Origin: Microbispora sp. H13382
GTDB taxonomy: Bacteria; Actinomycetota; Actinomycetes; Streptosporangiales; Streptosporangiaceae
DNA: 64,000 bases
Reading direction: 5' to 3'
NCBI RefSeq assembly: GCF_014161445.1
Contig: NZ_JABBXA010000002.1
Coordinates: 542,351-606,350 of the forward strand
Every line of letters begins with the position of its first letter. Within the stretch, counting starts at the first letter, position 1. A program made the position numbers and the translations under genes. Positions 30,591-38,972 of this stretch are shown here, piece by piece. A model generated the notes under the pieces. The model was not told where the DNA came from. It did not search any database and saw nothing but the letters and a program-made list of their open reading frames with translations.

Positions 30591-32417
30591 GTGCGCTGGC
30601 TCACTCTGATCCTCGGCGTGGCGATCCTCGCCGGTGTCGCATCAGTGGTGATCGTCTTCCGCGACGGGAACACCGGGTCCGGCACCGCCAGCGCCGGGCA
30701 GACCGCCCCAGCGACCCCGGCGCTCGGGTCGCCGACGCACAGCGAGTTCACCGACCCCTGCGGGACGTTCGAGACCGCGGCGACCACGCCCTACGCCGTG
30801 AGCGGCTACTGGCTGATCCCCACCTCCGATCCCTGCACCTGGCGGCGTCAGCTGGAGGCCATCCACCGGCTCGGCGGGGACACGGTCGTACGCCTCGGGT
30901 TCGGCCTGTCACCGCGCGAGACCGACGACGCGGGCCAGGTCCTGGAGGCGTCGACCCCCGAGGGGAAGGACCCCAAGCCCGACGGCAGGTACGCCCGCTG
31001 CGCCGAGAACGGGCTCACCTGCGTGCAGGCGGCGGACAAGGACATCAAGGCCGCCAATCCCGGCAACGAGATCACCGGGACGTACGTCTACCGCACCGAC
31101 GAGCGGTTCGGTCCCGGCATCCTCCGCTGCCCGCAGATGGAGCACGAGATCGTCGTGGGGGACGCCGTCTTCTTCCGGCTCCTCGCGCCCGAGGACGGTT
31201 CGGACGACCCCACCTGCGACTTCACCACCCAGGGACGCGGCTATCACCTGATCCTCGTCTCCGCGGGCGCCAAGGACAGCCTCACCGAGCTGCTCGGCCT
31301 CGGCGACCGGTTCGGCATCAAGGTCTTCCCCGCCCTGCCGCTCGCTCCGCGCGACCCCGAGGAGTCCACCCGGGCCGACCCCCGGCACATCGGCACGCTC
31401 ACCACGCTGACCCGGCGGATCCTGCAGGACTACGGCGACCGCTTCAACGGCCGCGAGTCGCTGGGCGGCGTCTACCAGCCGTTCGAACTGCAACTGCGGG
31501 ACTGGCCCGACCCGAGCAAGGTCCAGACGCTCCAGGTGTACGCCGAGCAGCACCTGATCGTCGAGCAGGAACTGCCGGACAAACCGATCCTGGTGAGCCC
31601 GTACATCGACAGCCGCAGACGGGTGAAGTACACCTCCACGCCCAGCCAGGTGGCCCAGGGCTTCAAGGCCCTCGCGCGCACCGGGGTGGAGATCATCGCC
31701 CCGCAGGACGGCCGGGGCACGGGCAAGGTCGGCCTGTTCTGGCCGAACTGGAAGAACAAGCCGGTGGACGACGCACTCAAGCCGGTCGTCGGCGAGAGCA
31801 CGTACGCCACGGCCTACTACGGCAGCACCCGGGACTACTACCGGGCGATGTCGCTGGCCAGGCAGGAGCTGGTCCAGGAGGGCGCCCAGGTCGAGCTGTG
31901 GGCCAACGTGGAGGCGTTCGAGCCCTCGACCTCGACCGAGACCTGCGGCCGTCAGGGCACTCGCGGGCGCACGGACAAGCCCAGGCTCGACACGCAGGTG
32001 ACGCTCGCCGCGCCGTACGTGTCGAAGATCATCTCGTACATGTGGAGCGACTTCTTCACCTGCGGCTCGCCGTCGCTGGCGGAGGAGATCGCGGCCGACT
32101 GGAACCGCCCGATCCCCATCGAGGCGCAGCGGCACGCGCGGCAGATCCAGGACGGCCTGGAGATCCGCGGCTACCACCTCGGCTCGGCCAAGGTCACGCT
32201 GAGCTGGCCGGACCTGGACACCCCCCGGGTCGTCGACTCGGCCACGGTCGGCTGGCACGACGCCACGCCGATCCCGGGGCTGCCGGCGGGCACGGAGCAG
32301 ATCTGGATCCCGGTCGACTGGGCCACGGTCCCCGAAGACGTGTGGATCCGCGTGGAGGTCACCTCCGCCGACGGCAGGAAGTCCGCCGAGCCGGTCTACT
32401 ACCACAACACCCGCTGA
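30591..32417 (+). CDS. Exported DUF4434-like (TIM-barrel glycosidase-type) protein
   Basis: A 608-residue protein with an N-terminal membrane helix or signal anchor ('LTLILGVAILAGVASVVIVF'). A Thr/Ala/Gly-rich linker follows, then a large extracytoplasmic domain. The segments 'VSGYWLIPTSDPCTWRRQLEAIHRLGGDTVVRLGFG', 'RESLGGVYQPFELQLRDWPD' and 'GVEIIAPQDGRGTGKVGLFWP' match, from memory, the DUF4434/DUF5109 glycosidase-like barrel. The C-terminal ~80 residues ('SAKVTLSWPDLDTPRVVDSATVGWHDATPIPGLPAG') look like a beta-sandwich. It follows the glycosyltransferase cluster and may trim or bind the surface polysaccharide. The GTG start is at the beginning of the hydrophobic segment. Confidence 0.7.
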   Translation: MRWLTLILGVAILAGVASVVIVFRDGNTGSGTASAGQTAPATPALGSPTHSEFTDPCGTFETAATTPYAVSGYWLIPTSDPCTWRRQLEAIHRLGGDTVVRLGFGLSPRETDDAGQVLEASTPEGKDPKPDGRYARCAENGLTCVQAADKDIKAANPGNEITGTYVYRTDERFGPGILRCPQMEHEIVVGDAVFFRLLAPEDGSDDPTCDFTTQGRGYHLILVSAGAKDSLTELLGLGDRFGIKVFPALPLAPRDPEESTRADPRHIGTLTTLTRRILQDYGDRFNGRESLGGVYQPFELQLRDWPDPSKVQTLQVYAEQHLIVEQELPDKPILVSPYIDSRRRVKYTSTPSQVAQGFKALARTGVEIIAPQDGRGTGKVGLFWPNWKNKPVDDALKPVVGESTYATAYYGSTRDYYRAMSLARQELVQEGAQVELWANVEAFEPSTSTETCGRQGTRGRTDKPRLDTQVTLAAPYVSKIISYMWSDFFTCGSPSLAEEIAADWNRPIPIEAQRHARQIQDGLEIRGYHLGSAKVTLSWPDLDTPRVVDSATVGWHDATPIPGLPAGTEQIWIPVDWATVPEDVWIRVEVTSADGRKSAEPVYYHNTR

Positions 32418-34194: not shown

Positions 34195-35409
34195 ATGCTG
34201 GCTGCGGCCCCCCGCATCCCCGATGCGCCGGCCAACCTCCCCGGACCGTCCCGGCTGCGCGTTCTCGACCTTCTGCGGTTCTGCGCGGCCCTCGGCGTCG
34301 TCCTGTTCCACTTCGGCGAGACGCGCGCCTGGGGCACGCCCAACGCCTTCCCCGCGCTGAGCGCGGTGACCATGTTCGGCGTGTACGGCGTGCGCCTGTT
34401 CTTCCTGATCAGCGGATTCGTGATCCTGATGAGCGCCTGGGGCCGCACCCCCGGTCACTTCGCGGCGTCGCGCATCGCCCGGCTGTACCCGGCGTACTGG
34501 GCGAGCGTGCTCGTCATGGGCGGCCTGGCCGTCGGGGGACTGATCACCGACCACCGGCCGAGCCTCACCGAGCTGCTGGCCAACATGACCATGCTCCAGC
34601 ACGGCTTCCGCGTACGCGACCTGGAGATCGTCTACTGGACGCTGTGGCAGGAGCTGGTCTTCTACGCCCTCATCGCGTGCCTCGCGGCCGTGGGGATCAC
34701 CTACCGCCGGTGCCTGGCGTTCATGGGGGCATGGGTGATCCTGCTGGCGATCGCCGACCGGGCGGACGCCGACCTGCTGCAGCAGCTGCTCGTCCCGTTC
34801 AGCGCGCCGTACTTCATCGCGGGGATGGCGCTCTATCTCATCCACCGCTTCGGCGGGTCGCTGTTCCCCTGGCTGTTCGTGGCCGTGGGCTGGGCGCTCG
34901 GGCTCTACACGGCACTCGACGGGGAACCGACGGCGGTCCGGAGATACGGGCAGGCGCTGGGCTCGGCGCTCGTGGTGGGCGTGATCTCGCTGATCTTCCT
35001 GGTGATGATCCTCGTGGCGGTCGGCGTGTTCGACCGGCTCGACTGGCGGTGGCTCACCTTCCTCGGCACGCTGACCTACCCGCTCTACCTCTTCCACCAC
35101 CACGTCGGGTTCCTGCTGATCCAGTGGCTCCACCCCGCGCTGGGCAACCGCCTCACGCTCCCGCTGGCCGTGGTCGGGGTGCTCGTGGTCGCGTACGGCG
35201 TGCACCGGCTGGTCGAGCGGCCCCTGCAATCGCGGATGCGCGCGGCTCTGGACCGCTCGCTCACGGCCGACGCCGCCCGCGTCCCCCTGGCCGAGACGGC
35301 GGCGGCCTCTCCCATGCCCCCGATGCCCGCGCCGATGCCCCCGACGATGCCCCCGCCGCCGTACGCGGAGACGGCGCCCGGAGCCGGCTACTTGCCGCGC
35401 GGCGGGTAG
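34195..35409 (+). CDS. Membrane acyltransferase (OafA/YrhL type)
   Basis: A 404-residue Acyltransferase_3 protein. It starts 'RLRVLDLLRFCAALGVVLFHFGE', with the catalytic histidine in 'LFHFG' as in OafA, then 'FGVYGVRLFFLISGFVILMSAWG' and 'FAASRIARLYPAYWASVLV'. About ten helices end with 'YPLYLFHHHVGFLLIQWL'. The C-terminal tail is a Pro/Met-rich repeat. It probably O-acylates a surface sugar. Its last 22 bp overlap the 3' end of the convergent deacetylase gene. The ATG at 34195 was preferred over a short upstream extension. Confidence 0.85.
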   Translation: MLAAAPRIPDAPANLPGPSRLRVLDLLRFCAALGVVLFHFGETRAWGTPNAFPALSAVTMFGVYGVRLFFLISGFVILMSAWGRTPGHFAASRIARLYPAYWASVLVMGGLAVGGLITDHRPSLTELLANMTMLQHGFRVRDLEIVYWTLWQELVFYALIACLAAVGITYRRCLAFMGAWVILLAIADRADADLLQQLLVPFSAPYFIAGMALYLIHRFGGSLFPWLFVAVGWALGLYTALDGEPTAVRRYGQALGSALVVGVISLIFLVMILVAVGVFDRLDWRWLTFLGTLTYPLYLFHHHVGFLLIQWLHPALGNRLTLPLAVVGVLVVAYGVHRLVERPLQSRMRAALDRSLTADAARVPLAETAAASPMPPMPAPMPPTMPPPPYAETAPGAGYLPRGG

Positions 35410-36161
35410 ATCTCGCCGGGACGCAGCTTGCGGCCCTGGAGCAGGGTCGTCAGCGTGACCAACTTGTAGTTCTCCTTCTCCAGCGCGGCGAGCACGCCCG
35501 GCATGACCTTGACCGTCTCGGGGACGATGTCGTGCAGCAGGATGACACCGTTGCGCTTGGCGAGCTTCAGCGTGCGTTCGGCGATCACCTTGGTGTCGCG
35601 GGCCTGCCAGTCGAGCGTGGACCCCGTCCACAGGATCTGCGGCAGCCCCAGGTCGACCATGAGACCGGAGACCCGGGAGTCGGTCGCGCCGTTCGGCGGG
35701 CGCATGTACTCGGGCCTCTTGCCGATCGTCTGGTAGATGACCTCCGAGGTGGTCGAGACCTCGTCGAACACCTCGCCGTCGGACAGCTTGGTGAGCGAGG
35801 GGTGGGTCCAGGTGTGGTTGCCGATGTCGTGACCCTCCTCGTAGATCCGCCTGGTGAGCTCGGGCCGGTAGGCCACCTTCCTGCCGAGCAGGAAGAAGGT
35901 GGCCTTCGCCTTGTGCTTCTTCAGCGTGTCGAGCAACGCGGGGGTGTAGTGCCACGGACCGTCGTCGAAGGTGAGGGCGATGCACTTGTACCGGGCGCAG
36001 TAGGGCTCGGTCTTCGTCTTCGTCTCGGCCTGCTTCGCCTCGGCCCGGGTCACGGCCGCCGTCTTCGTGGTGGCGGCGGTCGCGGATCCGGTCGGGGTGG
36101 GGACGACGCTCACGCCGGCTGCGCAGATACCGGCCATTACGATTCTTACTTTCCGCCACAT
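35388..36161 (-). CDS. Secreted polysaccharide deacetylase (NodB domain)
   Basis: A 257-residue exported CE4 enzyme that would remove N-acetyl groups from peptidoglycan, chitin-like or other surface glycans. The signal peptide is at about 1-30. Motif 1 is 'ALTFDDGPWHYTPALLDTL' (catalytic base Asp and metal Asp), motif 2 'HDIGNHTWTHPSL' (metal-binding H-x3-H), motif 3 'MRPPNGATDSRV', and motif 5 'GVILLHDIVPETV' (catalytic His). All essential metal ligands are present. Convergent overlap with the acyltransferase; the kinase-GH6 gene is 36 bp upstream on the same strand, so co-transcription is likely. Confidence 0.92.
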   Translation of the reverse strand: MWRKVRIVMAGICAAGVSVVPTPTGSATAATTKTAAVTRAEAKQAETKTKTEPYCARYKCIALTFDDGPWHYTPALLDTLKKHKAKATFFLLGRKVAYRPELTRRIYEEGHDIGNHTWTHPSLTKLSDGEVFDEVSTTSEVIYQTIGKRPEYMRPPNGATDSRVSGLMVDLGLPQILWTGSTLDWQARDTKVIAERTLKLAKRNGVILLHDIVPETVKVMPGVLAALEKENYKLVTLTTLLQGRKLRPGEIYPPRGK

Positions 36162-36197: not shown

Positions 36198-38354
36198 TCA
36201 AAGCGGCGGAACGGCGTCCTTTGCCCGCTGCAGGGCGAGCTCCGGCCACCACGCGCCGCCGTACGGGGTGACGGTGCCGTACACCGGGTCCTCGGCGCCG
36301 CCCTCTCCCCGGGTGCAGCGGTCGTCGGACATGCCGACCGGCCGCACCCACAGGTACGCGTCCACGAGCGGGCTGCCGGTCCGGGTGGTCGGCCGCACGC
36401 CGACGCCACGCCCCGGCGGGTTGCACCAGACCTCGGGGTCCTTGTACCTGCCCGCCGGCGGGTTCCACTCGCCCCTGCCGTTCCTGCTGGTGTCGATCAC
36501 GAAGTGGGGGAGCCCGGCCGTTCCCGCGTCCGTACCGGCGTCGGAGCACGTGGCGGCGCCCGCGGACACGGACTTCACACAGGCGGCCAGGCGGGTGCCG
36601 TACGCGATGAGCCGGTCGGTTCTCTGATATCCGGCGGCGTTCAGATAGAAGCCGTCGGCCCCGGCGATCCCGGCCTTCACCAGCCGCGCGGCCGCGACCT
36701 CGGGGGACGGCCAGCCGTCCAGGCTGCCGTCGAGGTAGACGGCGGTGTTCGGCAGCGCGCCGAGCCGCTCGACCGCCGAGGCGAGCATGCGCAGTCTGGC
36801 TTTCTGATCGTCGGCGTCGCCGAGGGAACAGTCGGGCGAAGCGGGCAACTCGGCGAGGCTGTTGGGCTCCAGCACGAACACCGCGCTCCGGTCGCCGACG
36901 GACGACGCGATCGCGTCGATCCACGCGAGATACTCCGCCGAATCCGCCGCGCCGCCCTCGTTGCACGCCCGCAGCGGGATGTGGTCGGTGACGAAGACCG
37001 GCACCGCGCCCAGCCGCGCCGCCGCTTCCACCGTGGCACTCGTCGTACTGGCCGCCTGCGCCGCGTCGATCTGTCCCAGCCACACGGCCCTCGGCGCGGC
37101 GGCCAGCTTCCGGATCAACGCGGCGTCCGCGGCCCGGCCGGCCGTCTCCAGGGCCGACGCCTGTGTGGCCTCGTCGCCGGTCGGGCTCGCGTAGAGCCGT
37201 ACGGCCTGCCCCCGGAGCGGATTGCCGCCGGCCGGAGCGCCGGCGGTCGCGGGTGAGACCTGCCCTCCACCCGGCGTCCGCCCTCCGCCCGATGCCTGGT
37301 GCCCGCCCGACGAGGCCGACTGGACGGCGACGACGACCCCGGCCGTGACCAGGACGGCCGCGGCGGCGGTCGCGATCCCCAGGCGTGATCCGGACCATCG
37401 CCTCGTCCGGGTGTCCGCGCCGGGCGTCCCGGCACCGGCCCGTGTCCCGTCCGGTGCTGCGACCGCGGCCGCCGTGCCCAGCCGCGAGACCTCGGGCGCG
37501 GTGCCCCGCCACGCGGCCTCGGGCGCGGGGGTGACGGGCTCGTGACCGGTCAGCATCTCGACCAGCCGCTGCGCGGTGGGGCGGTGGACCGGGTCCTTCG
37601 CCAGCGCGAGCTCGACGATCGACCGAAGCCGGGGGTCGAGGCCGGAGATGTGCGGAGGCTCGTGCAGCACCCGGTAGAGGATGCCCGGGATCGACTCCCC
37701 GCTGAACGGCGCCCGGCCCGAGGCGGTGTAGGCGACCAGGGCGCCCCAGGCGAAGATGTCGGACGCCGGGGTGAGGCGGTCGCCCTTCGCCTGCTCCGGC
37801 GACATGAAGGACGGCGTTCCCGCGACGATGCCGCTGATGTCCGCCGTGGTGTCGGTGACCTGGGCGATGCCGAAGTCGATGACCTTGGGGCCGACCGGCG
37901 ACAGCAGCACGTTCGACGGCTTGAGGTCGCGGTGGATCACCCCCGCGCTGTGGATCGCCTGCAGCGCCACGGCCACGTTGACCGCCACCGCCTCCAGGCT
38001 CGACCCCGACAGCGGCCCTCGCTCCCGCACGACCTCCTGAAGCGTGGGCCCGGGGACGTATTCGGTGGCGAGGTAGGCGGTCTCGCCGTCCAGCCCCGCG
38101 CCGAGGACGGCGGCGGTGCAGAAACGCGCCACCCGCTGCGCGGCGGCGACCTCGCGCCGGAACCGGCGGAGGAAGCCGGGGTCGGCCGCCCACTGTGGAT
38201 GGATCACCTTGACCGCCGCGTCGCGGCCCTCGGCGTCCCGGCCGAGGTAGACCACGCCCATGCCGCCCTGACCGAGCCTGCCGAGGATGCGGAACGGCCC
38301 GATTCGCCGGGGATCGCCGTCCCGAGGTCCTTCGCCCTCCGCGCCGCTCGTCAT
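36198..38354 (-). CDS. Transmembrane Ser/Thr protein kinase fused to a GH6 cellulase-like ectodomain
   Basis: A 718-residue receptor-like kinase. Residues about 18-270 are a PknB-type kinase with 'GRLGQGGMGVVYLG' (glycine loop), 'AAVKVI' (lysine), 'VIHRDLKPSNVLL' (catalytic loop, about 138-147), 'VIDFGIAQ' and 'GTPSFMSPEQ', so it should be active. A Pro/Ala/Gly linker leads to one membrane helix (about 325-346) and another Gly-rich linker. Residues about 383-718 are a glycoside hydrolase family 6 fold: 'RAVWLGQ', 'AEYLAWIDAIASSV', 'AVYLDGSLDGWPSP', 'FVIDTSRNGRGEW', 'VWCNPPGRGVGVRPT', 'DAYLWVRPVG'. Where GH6 enzymes have R-D-C and E-P-D, this protein has R-A463-C and E-P-N498, so the main catalytic acids look replaced. 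The ectodomain is probably a sensor of cello-oligosaccharides or another beta-glucan. Start ATG behind GAGGAG. Confidence 0.88.
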   Translation of the reverse strand: MTSGAEGEGPRDGDPRRIGPFRILGRLGQGGMGVVYLGRDAEGRDAAVKVIHPQWAADPGFLRRFRREVAAAQRVARFCTAAVLGAGLDGETAYLATEYVPGPTLQEVVRERGPLSGSSLEAVAVNVAVALQAIHSAGVIHRDLKPSNVLLSPVGPKVIDFGIAQVTDTTADISGIVAGTPSFMSPEQAKGDRLTPASDIFAWGALVAYTASGRAPFSGESIPGILYRVLHEPPHISGLDPRLRSIVELALAKDPVHRPTAQRLVEMLTGHEPVTPAPEAAWRGTAPEVSRLGTAAAVAAPDGTRAGAGTPGADTRTRRWSGSRLGIATAAAAVLVTAGVVVAVQSASSGGHQASGGGRTPGGGQVSPATAGAPAGGNPLRGQAVRLYASPTGDEATQASALETAGRAADAALIRKLAAAPRAVWLGQIDAAQAASTTSATVEAAARLGAVPVFVTDHIPLRACNEGGAADSAEYLAWIDAIASSVGDRSAVFVLEPNSLAELPASPDCSLGDADDQKARLRMLASAVERLGALPNTAVYLDGSLDGWPSPEVAAARLVKAGIAGADGFYLNAAGYQRTDRLIAYGTRLAACVKSVSAGAATCSDAGTDAGTAGLPHFVIDTSRNGRGEWNPPAGRYKDPEVWCNPPGRGVGVRPTTRTGSPLVDAYLWVRPVGMSDDRCTRGEGGAEDPVYGTVTPYGGAWWPELALQRAKDAVPPL

Positions 38355-38495
38355 GTTCTCCTCGATCGCCCGGTTACCGCGTGATCCTAACCAGGCGCTC
38401 CTTCCGCCGACCAGGCGGCGTACAGCGGGCGTCAAGGGACTTGAAAGCGTCGCGGCGCAGACTGCGTGCAACGACGCAGGAAAGGAACCCCAGCC

Positions 38496-38972
38496 ATGAC
38501 CCTCACCCGCTCCCTGGCCGGAATCACGCTCGCGGCCGGCATTCTGGCCCTCGCCCCGATCGCCACCGCCACGGCCGCCCAGGCCGCCCCGGCCAAGCCC
38601 TGGGGCCCCTACTACGCGGCCGGGTCGAAGGCCAAGACGAGCGGCTCGCTGACCGCCGCGGCCAAGAACGACCCGAGCCTGCCCGCGCCGTACGTGAAGG
38701 TCGCCGGCAGCGTCACCAGCCTGAACCGCAAGGCGTCCACCTGCGGCTGGGCCCTGTTCCGCGTCAGCTACTTCGACTCCGCCAACCAGCCGCACCTGGC
38801 GTACCGCAACTACCGCACCTGCTCCTACGGAGCGAAGAAGCAGTTCGCCTTCACCATCAAGAACGTCGGCGAGGTCGAGCTCAAGGTCTGCTCCGAGGCC
38901 AAGGCCGCCAAGCCGTCCCTCAACTGCCAGTACGCCGGCACCTGGAAGACGCTGTACGCGTACTACAAGTAG
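38496..38972 (+). CDS. Small secreted cysteine-containing protein
   Basis: A 158-residue exported protein with a clear signal peptide ('LAGITLAAGILALAPIATATAAQA'). The mature domain is basic and beta-rich, with four cysteines ('STCGWALFRVSYFDSANQPH', 'YRTCSYGAKKQFAF', 'ELKVCSEAKA', 'SLNCQYAG') that could form two disulfides. No family was recognised. The ATG has AAGGAA. It is divergent from the kinase-GH6 gene with about 140 bp between, so it could be a target or ligand of that pathway; this is proximity only. Confidence 0.75.
   Translation: MTLTRSLAGITLAAGILALAPIATATAAQAAPAKPWGPYYAAGSKAKTSGSLTAAAKNDPSLPAPYVKVAGSVTSLNRKASTCGWALFRVSYFDSANQPHLAYRNYRTCSYGAKKQFAFTIKNVGEVELKVCSEAKAAKPSLNCQYAGTWKTLYAYYK

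Follow-up and report, generated by a model that had tools for sequence, protein, structure and literature searches.

A membrane Ser/Thr kinase of Microbispora sp. H13382 with a probably inactive GH6 cellulase domain as its putative extracellular sensor

That a glycoside hydrolase (GH) fold can serve as a polysaccharide sensor is known from the membrane anti-sigma factor RsgI6 of Clostridium thermocellum, whose GH10 domain is reported to bind polysaccharide while showing very low activity (PMC4711584). The PASTA receptor kinases (PknB, PrkC, StkP) are described as carrying an extracellular ligand-binding domain after one membrane helix and as being driven to dimerise by their ligand (PMC6213207). 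The protein considered here is encoded in a stretch of 64,000 nucleotides (hereafter the window) from the genome of Microbispora sp. H13382 (8.7 Mb, 70 contigs), and its closest precedent is RsgI6. Like RsgI6, it seems to place an extracellular GH domain (the orientation being predicted from topology) on a membrane signalling protein, whereas the GH family, the output (a Ser/Thr kinase instead of an anti-sigma factor) and the phylum are different, and 60 of the 62 kinase-GH6 fusions compared below have lost the catalytic acid. Kinase type and topology are those described for the PASTA kinases and for the beta-propeller kinase PknD (PMC6213207), but the sensor is a GH6 domain, and the window protein has neither a PASTA (Pfam) nor an NHL match. 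This domain is in turn homologous over its full length to TfCel6A (1TML) and to Cel6 of M. tuberculosis (1UOZ), with ~30% identity, but differs from both by the loss of the acid, of most of the -1 subsite and of part of the active-site loop, as well as by the fused kinase. No description of a kinase-GH6 receptor was found in the open-access literature, to which the search was confined; subscription papers, database annotations or other sources may mention one.

The open reading frame (Table 1) starts with the ATG at 38354, just 5' of which lies GAGGAG, and its stop codon ends at 36198; the plus-strand frame across the same stretch is interrupted by two stops. The GH6 domain gives a full-length match to PF01341 (covering positions 5-301 of the 305 in the profile), and its PDB sequence matches are 1up0, 1uoz, 6fao and 1tml. 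An AlphaFold2 model built from 7 sequences was weak (mean pLDDT 63, pTM 0.71); with this model Foldseek returned 23 matches at E <=0.001, all of them GH6 enzymes or scaffolds derived from them, the best being 1uoz (TM 0.62 by query). The modelling supports a GH6 fold, and nothing beyond it. The topology would make the GH6 domain extracellular, and the membrane helix between the two domains passes a 19-residue hydropathy test in 60 of the 62 fusions, the other two falling marginally below. An earlier reading of the window from sequence only had described one ORF for an intact kinase of the PknB type, a single membrane helix and the complete GH6 fold, which is confirmed by Pfam, hydropathy and motifs, and the residues it had named (A463, N498, D542, IDTSRNG at 620-626 and D677/D678) are all correct.

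Table 1. Features of the kinase-GH6 locus (positions are those of the window)
Feature	Position	Strand	Basis
Whole ORF: Ser/Thr kinase, membrane helix (TM), predicted GH6 pseudoenzyme, 718 aa	36198..38354	-	ORF and Pfam
Hanks-type kinase domain, residues 23-266	37557..38288	-	Pfam PF00069 (E 3.1e-38), motif count
Single membrane helix, ~residues 325-345	37320..37382	-	Hydropathy
GH6 domain, residues 401-684	36303..37154	-	PF01341 (E 3.5e-52), PDB sequence matches, Foldseek
Ala463 at the proposed catalytic base position (1TML D79)	36966..36968	-	Alignment to 1TML
Asn498 at the catalytic acid position (1TML D117)	36861..36863	-	Alignment to 1TML
Polysaccharide deacetylase, 36 bp downstream of kinase-GH6, perhaps co-transcribed, possible partner	35388..36161	-	PF01522 (E 1.1e-39)
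Small exported protein (signal-like start), divergent from kinase-GH6, possible partner	38466..38972	+	ORF

Judged by its motifs, the kinase is an intact RD-type Ser/Thr kinase. All hallmarks of the Hanks or PknB type are present, i.e. the glycine loop (GQGGMG), the beta-3 lysine (K49), HRDxxxxN (HRDLKPSN, 141-148), DFG (160-162), a threonine in the activation segment (T180) and an APE-like motif, and they are intact in 61 of the 62 fusions, the exception being a frame-broken second copy in the source genome. The highest NCBIfam score of the window protein was that for the AfsK kinase model (239.9, with a cut-off of 1300), and the PASTA-kinase model also remained below its cut-off (200.6 versus 450 bits). 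There is no RsgI_N match (Pfam), the N-terminal part being the kinase. The source genome contains 57 kinase-domain matches, and among the 8 other large-tailed kinases scanned with Pfam none carries a glycosidase sensor. In one of these 8, a Ser/Thr kinase (L181, 161-2347), the outer part is a family 3 solute-binding protein domain.

For the catalytic site, the 62 distinct ORFs with both domains, found in 53 genomes of the same family, were aligned with 39 stand-alone GH6 sequences, with positions numbered by 1TML (the T. fusca enzyme). Rows with an identical 100-residue core and GH6 stretches shorter than 150 aa were left out, and the frame-broken paralogue (row L006/L044) is included in the 62; the stand-alones are not a random sample, having been selected for their similarity to the query or GH6, and their activity is presumed from residues. 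D117 is described as the catalytic acid in GH6 (PMC5968413). It is retained in 38 of the 39 stand-alones (the 39th, L043, is split between frames there) versus 2 of the 62 fusions, where the position otherwise holds N (33), S (13), G (7), A (3), Q (2), K (1) or E (1). The two fusions with D117 lack D79 (L058) or D265 (L124), and D79, D117 and D265 occur together in none of the fusions, versus 38 of the 39 stand-alones. Besides Ala463 and Asn498, the window protein has D457 in place of the ring-distorting Y73, G575 for N190, R671 for K259 and M675 for E263, and its active-site loop is shortened and lacks the loop serine; D542 (D156) and D677 (D265) are still there. Over the whole alignment, 58 columns are at least 90% conserved in the stand-alones, of which 38 are so (at least 90%) in the fusions as well and 20 are lost. 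Depletion is strongest at K259, S84 (loop), N190, D117, Y73, E263 and D265, with K259 and the S84 column lost in all 62 fusions, and by alignment these most depleted columns are the catalytic centre and its loop (the loop equivalences to TrCel6A residues being our assumption).

The sequence-only reading had based its view of a dead enzyme on the loss of both base and acid, and as a trait of the fusions this holds for the acid but not for the base: D79 is kept in 42 of the 62 and lost in 20 (the window subgroup among them), which makes Ala463 a trait of that subgroup. Similarly, the late aspartate that had been said to remain does so in the window protein, but not in the fusions generally, being lost in 53 and kept in 9 (including the window); D156, the counterpart of D542, is retained in all 62. 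Loss of D79 alone is no proof of a dead enzyme, since the TrCel6A base mutant D175A is reported to keep 2-3% activity (PMC6091422). From the loss of the acid together with that of the rest of the -1 site, however, it seems very likely that the GH6 domain is catalytically dead. Against this reading, Y73 has become Asp in 36 of the 62 fusions, which puts a new carboxylate into the site, whereas at the D117 position a carboxylate is found in three fusions only (D twice, E once), each of them without D79 and/or D265. A membrane-tethered GH6 enzyme with residual or different hydrolysis (via D457, D542 or D677) might make use of Y73D, D156 or the few remaining D265 and D117 residues, and the activity left in the D175A mutant would be in its favour, but with the acid lost in 60 of the 62, K259 and the loop serine lost throughout and no carboxylate shared by the fusions where the acid had been, it is regarded as very improbable. 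An ordinary tethered cellulase is rejected on residues.

Outside the catalytic centre much of the domain is retained: cysteines 80, 125, 232 and 267 as well as W231 are present in all fusions and W162 in 97%; W41, however, is lost in 25 of the 62. D156, W162 and W231 are taken by us to be cleft residues, and the subsite served by each tryptophan is likewise presumed. In 14 pairs, dN/dS (computed, as were the gene calls, with custom scripts) was 0.15-0.52 for the GH6 part and 0.08-0.34 for the kinase part, and the former range argues that the domain is kept and not decaying. Judging from the sequences, the cellulase fold, two aromatic cleft platforms and the disulfide cysteines are kept under purifying selection. 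The intact kinase, the helix and the maintained cleft platforms together point to a receptor, and the explanation that we consider probable is a membrane receptor kinase with a GH6 pseudoenzyme as extracellular sensor of beta-glucan, which would be bound and not cut. The receptor proposed by the sequence-only reading is thereby supported, and from these features we infer its function and its ligand. A beta-1,4-glucan chain or cello-oligosaccharide would bind the remaining cleft without being cut, which could bring kinases together or alter the distance between them (the effect that peptidoglycan has on PASTA kinases), after which the kinase would autophosphorylate and its targets might adjust carbohydrate use or envelope modification.

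A dead glycosidase fold can also be a protein dock, as in the Klotho proteins. A pseudoenzyme that docks a protein or glycoprotein (e.g. the small exported protein or some secreted cellulase) and not free glycan would fit the -1 subsite being changed in all 62 fusions, and 7 of the 9 window-like loci show synteny for the exported protein. Such a dock would have no need, however, of D156, W162 and W231 (if their presumed placement in the cleft is right), which are kept at 97-100%, and in the stretches searched around the fusions that are not window-like, no homologue of the exported protein was found; protein docking is accordingly rated as quite improbable.

That the GH6 part is a decaying passenger, i.e. 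a chance fusion drifting to loss, is hardly credible. The paralogue in the same genome (L044 2219-4359, contig C44) does read in two frames inside the kinase, in that its similarity to a relative runs through kinase residues 1-233 in one frame and through the remainder in another, overlapping one (owing to a frameshift or to an error of assembly), but the dN/dS values given above, the four cysteines in all 62 fusions, the kinase motifs intact in all but this copy and the pairing of kinase-GH6 genes, in tandem or nearly so, at five loci (L045, L046, L047, L048 and L080) all speak against decay. In L046 a gene for a TetR-type regulator lies between the paired genes. The sequence-only reading had also allowed for a rare accident, with the fusion absent from any relative; this, like a chance ORF, is ruled out by the 62 distinct fusions, carried by 53 genomes.

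In a midpoint-rooted tree of the GH6 part (101 rows), the fusions form one clade (support 100/100), which is grouped with stand-alone GH6 proteins of genera g38 and g100 (97/94) whose catalytic residues are intact. This fits a single fusion event with catalytic loss in the descendants. A survey of the family gave matches at E <=1e-45 in 92 of 341 genomes, of which 70, in 12 genera, are counted as fusion carriers after subtraction of 22 in genera g38, g100 and g6 (where the fetched members are stand-alone); the kinase architecture was checked in 53 of these 70, and the other 17, all of genus g4, were assigned from their genus and the strength of the match (in three of the 17 the open frame is short, and two of these frames begin within 260 bases of a contig start). 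Each of two GH6 matches in genus g6 (G348 C1 837679 and G358 C1 5818051) contains a single in-frame TAG. The same threshold (E <=1e-45), applied to 396 sampled genomes of the phylum, gave three matching genomes, namely the source genome and two of family f20, the latter with open frames of ~400 aa, too short for a fusion. More tentatively, a cellulase may have become a receptor once, in the common ancestor of some actinomycetes of the Streptosporangiaceae type, and then have radiated by speciation and tandem duplication into glycan receptor kinases, in which the altered -1 subsites (the acid changed to N, S, G, A, K or Q, and Y73 to D or N) would give different ligand preferences and beta-glucans of plants and microbes would be read by dead enzyme copies; this scenario is put forward as a possible one.

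To our knowledge, little is known about membrane sensing of insoluble polymers by cellulolytic actinomycetes, and for many receptor kinases of bacteria a ligand is not known. In the present case the ancestry of the sensor names a candidate ligand class, intact sister enzymes provide controls and there are dozens of natural variants, so that ligand, activation and specificity are directly testable. If true, this would be a clear example of an enzyme becoming a bacterial receptor, comparable to RsgI6, which belongs to a different phylum and has a different output.

In the window an acyltransferase gene lies beyond the deacetylase, and the divergent exported protein has no Pfam or NCBIfam match. 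The order of deacetylase, acyltransferase and divergent exported protein is kept in 7 of the 9 window-like loci (the window, L071-L075 and L078); of the two exceptions, L077 (and its double L038) has a weak deacetylase match on the opposite strand, and in L076 the homologue of the exported protein is further away. Beside fusions outside this group, homologues of these three were not found in the stretches (>8 kb) searched. The earlier suggestion that the deacetylase and the exported protein belong to the pathway is thus mildly favoured by their place at the window-like loci but not by the other fusions, and the deacetylase could be a co-expressed partner in the window. Also in the window, upstream of nudix and acyltransferase genes, a 608 aa protein with a DUF4434 domain is encoded (30591-32417, plus strand).

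The deacetylase directly downstream and its conservation, together with the acyltransferase, at most window-like loci would also suit a kinase that senses a glycan of its own surface (a cellulose-like or peptidoglycan-related polymer of the hyphae) and tunes the envelope through these two enzymes. Support comes from fusions in genomes without GH48 or other GH6, and from CslZ of Streptomyces, a GH6 lipoprotein of the cslA-glxA cluster that is described as a glucanase with its catalytic Asp kept, acting on envelope and peptidoglycan (PMC9040799). Like the window protein, CslZ is a GH6 protein attached to the membrane in a filamentous actinomycete. The setting differs, however, in that PF09118 (a proxy for the oxidase GlxA, which the tip glycan of Streptomyces requires) gave no match in 8 of the 9 fusion genomes tested, with matches in 4 of 5 family f20 genomes as positive control, which disfavours the Streptomyces-type CslA/GlxA glycan as general ligand. 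Moreover, cellulase genes adjoin the fusion in genera g45 and g95, and the deacetylase and acyltransferase are confined to the window-like group in the stretches searched, so that sensing of an own surface glycan is considered unlikely. In a genome of family f20 (G619, C12 88608-89873), a GH6 match adjoins a PF09118 (GlxA-type) match, as described for cslZ-glxA, and is 45% identical to the dead domain of the window protein over the matched part.

Returning to the beta-glucan receptor, a GH48 gene lies directly 3' of kinase-GH6 on the same strand in five genomes of g45 and g95, at a distance of 290-573 bp where measured (L085, L090 and L106; for G058 and G253 the neighbour was taken from coordinates alone). 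The GH48 of L085 carries a CBM2, and the next gene there encodes a GH9-CBM3-CBM2 protein (Pfam), to which the L090 protein is 89% identical (L106 ends before this gene). This adjacency in two genera points to cellulose, and the GH48 and GH9 cellulases directly downstream would be the likely outputs there; the fusions of the five genomes group on the tree (97/71), so it is perhaps one event. Upstream of kinase-GH6 in L085, L090 and L106, and in its orientation, are genes for a LacI-like sugar-binding protein and for another Ser/Thr kinase (gene calling places a small gene of opposite orientation in between), giving a conserved cellulase cluster with two receptor-type kinases (LacI-like, kinase, kinase-GH6, GH48 and GH9; 603-11963 in L085).

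In general, GH48 is present in 59 of the 70 fusion genomes versus 140 of the 271 others (Fisher p 3e-7, with ancestry ignored), an association that is confounded by ancestry. Seven fusion genomes have neither another GH6 nor GH48 (G048, G148, G259, G260, G370, G371 and G228, with completeness of 78% for G371 and 63% for G228), and the first six of these have 1, 3, 1, 0, 0 and 1 GH5, respectively, which argues that cellulase induction is not the general role.

A single partner gene common to all fusions was not found by Pfam at 15 loci or by the neighbour calls, the chosen neighbours at these 15 loci (of which L076 is window-like) belonging to assorted families. The neighbour seen most often is a GNAT acetyltransferase gene: of the 53 fusion genes called (loci L044-L055 and L071-L130), 13 have it 11-155 bp upstream in the same orientation, and it is preceded in the same 13 loci (L045, L055, L080, L081, L083, L122 and L124-L130, in two separate tree groups) by a DUF2630 gene. 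By family these two neighbours give no hint of carbohydrate work, which counts against the beta-glucan receptor; they may be relics of the site where the kinase-GH6 gene originally lay, or may act together with it. Other neighbours are an aromatic lyase at 2 loci and an MFS protein with a response regulator at 7 loci of one group, and a leuA gene lies near kinase-GH6 in L080 and L086.
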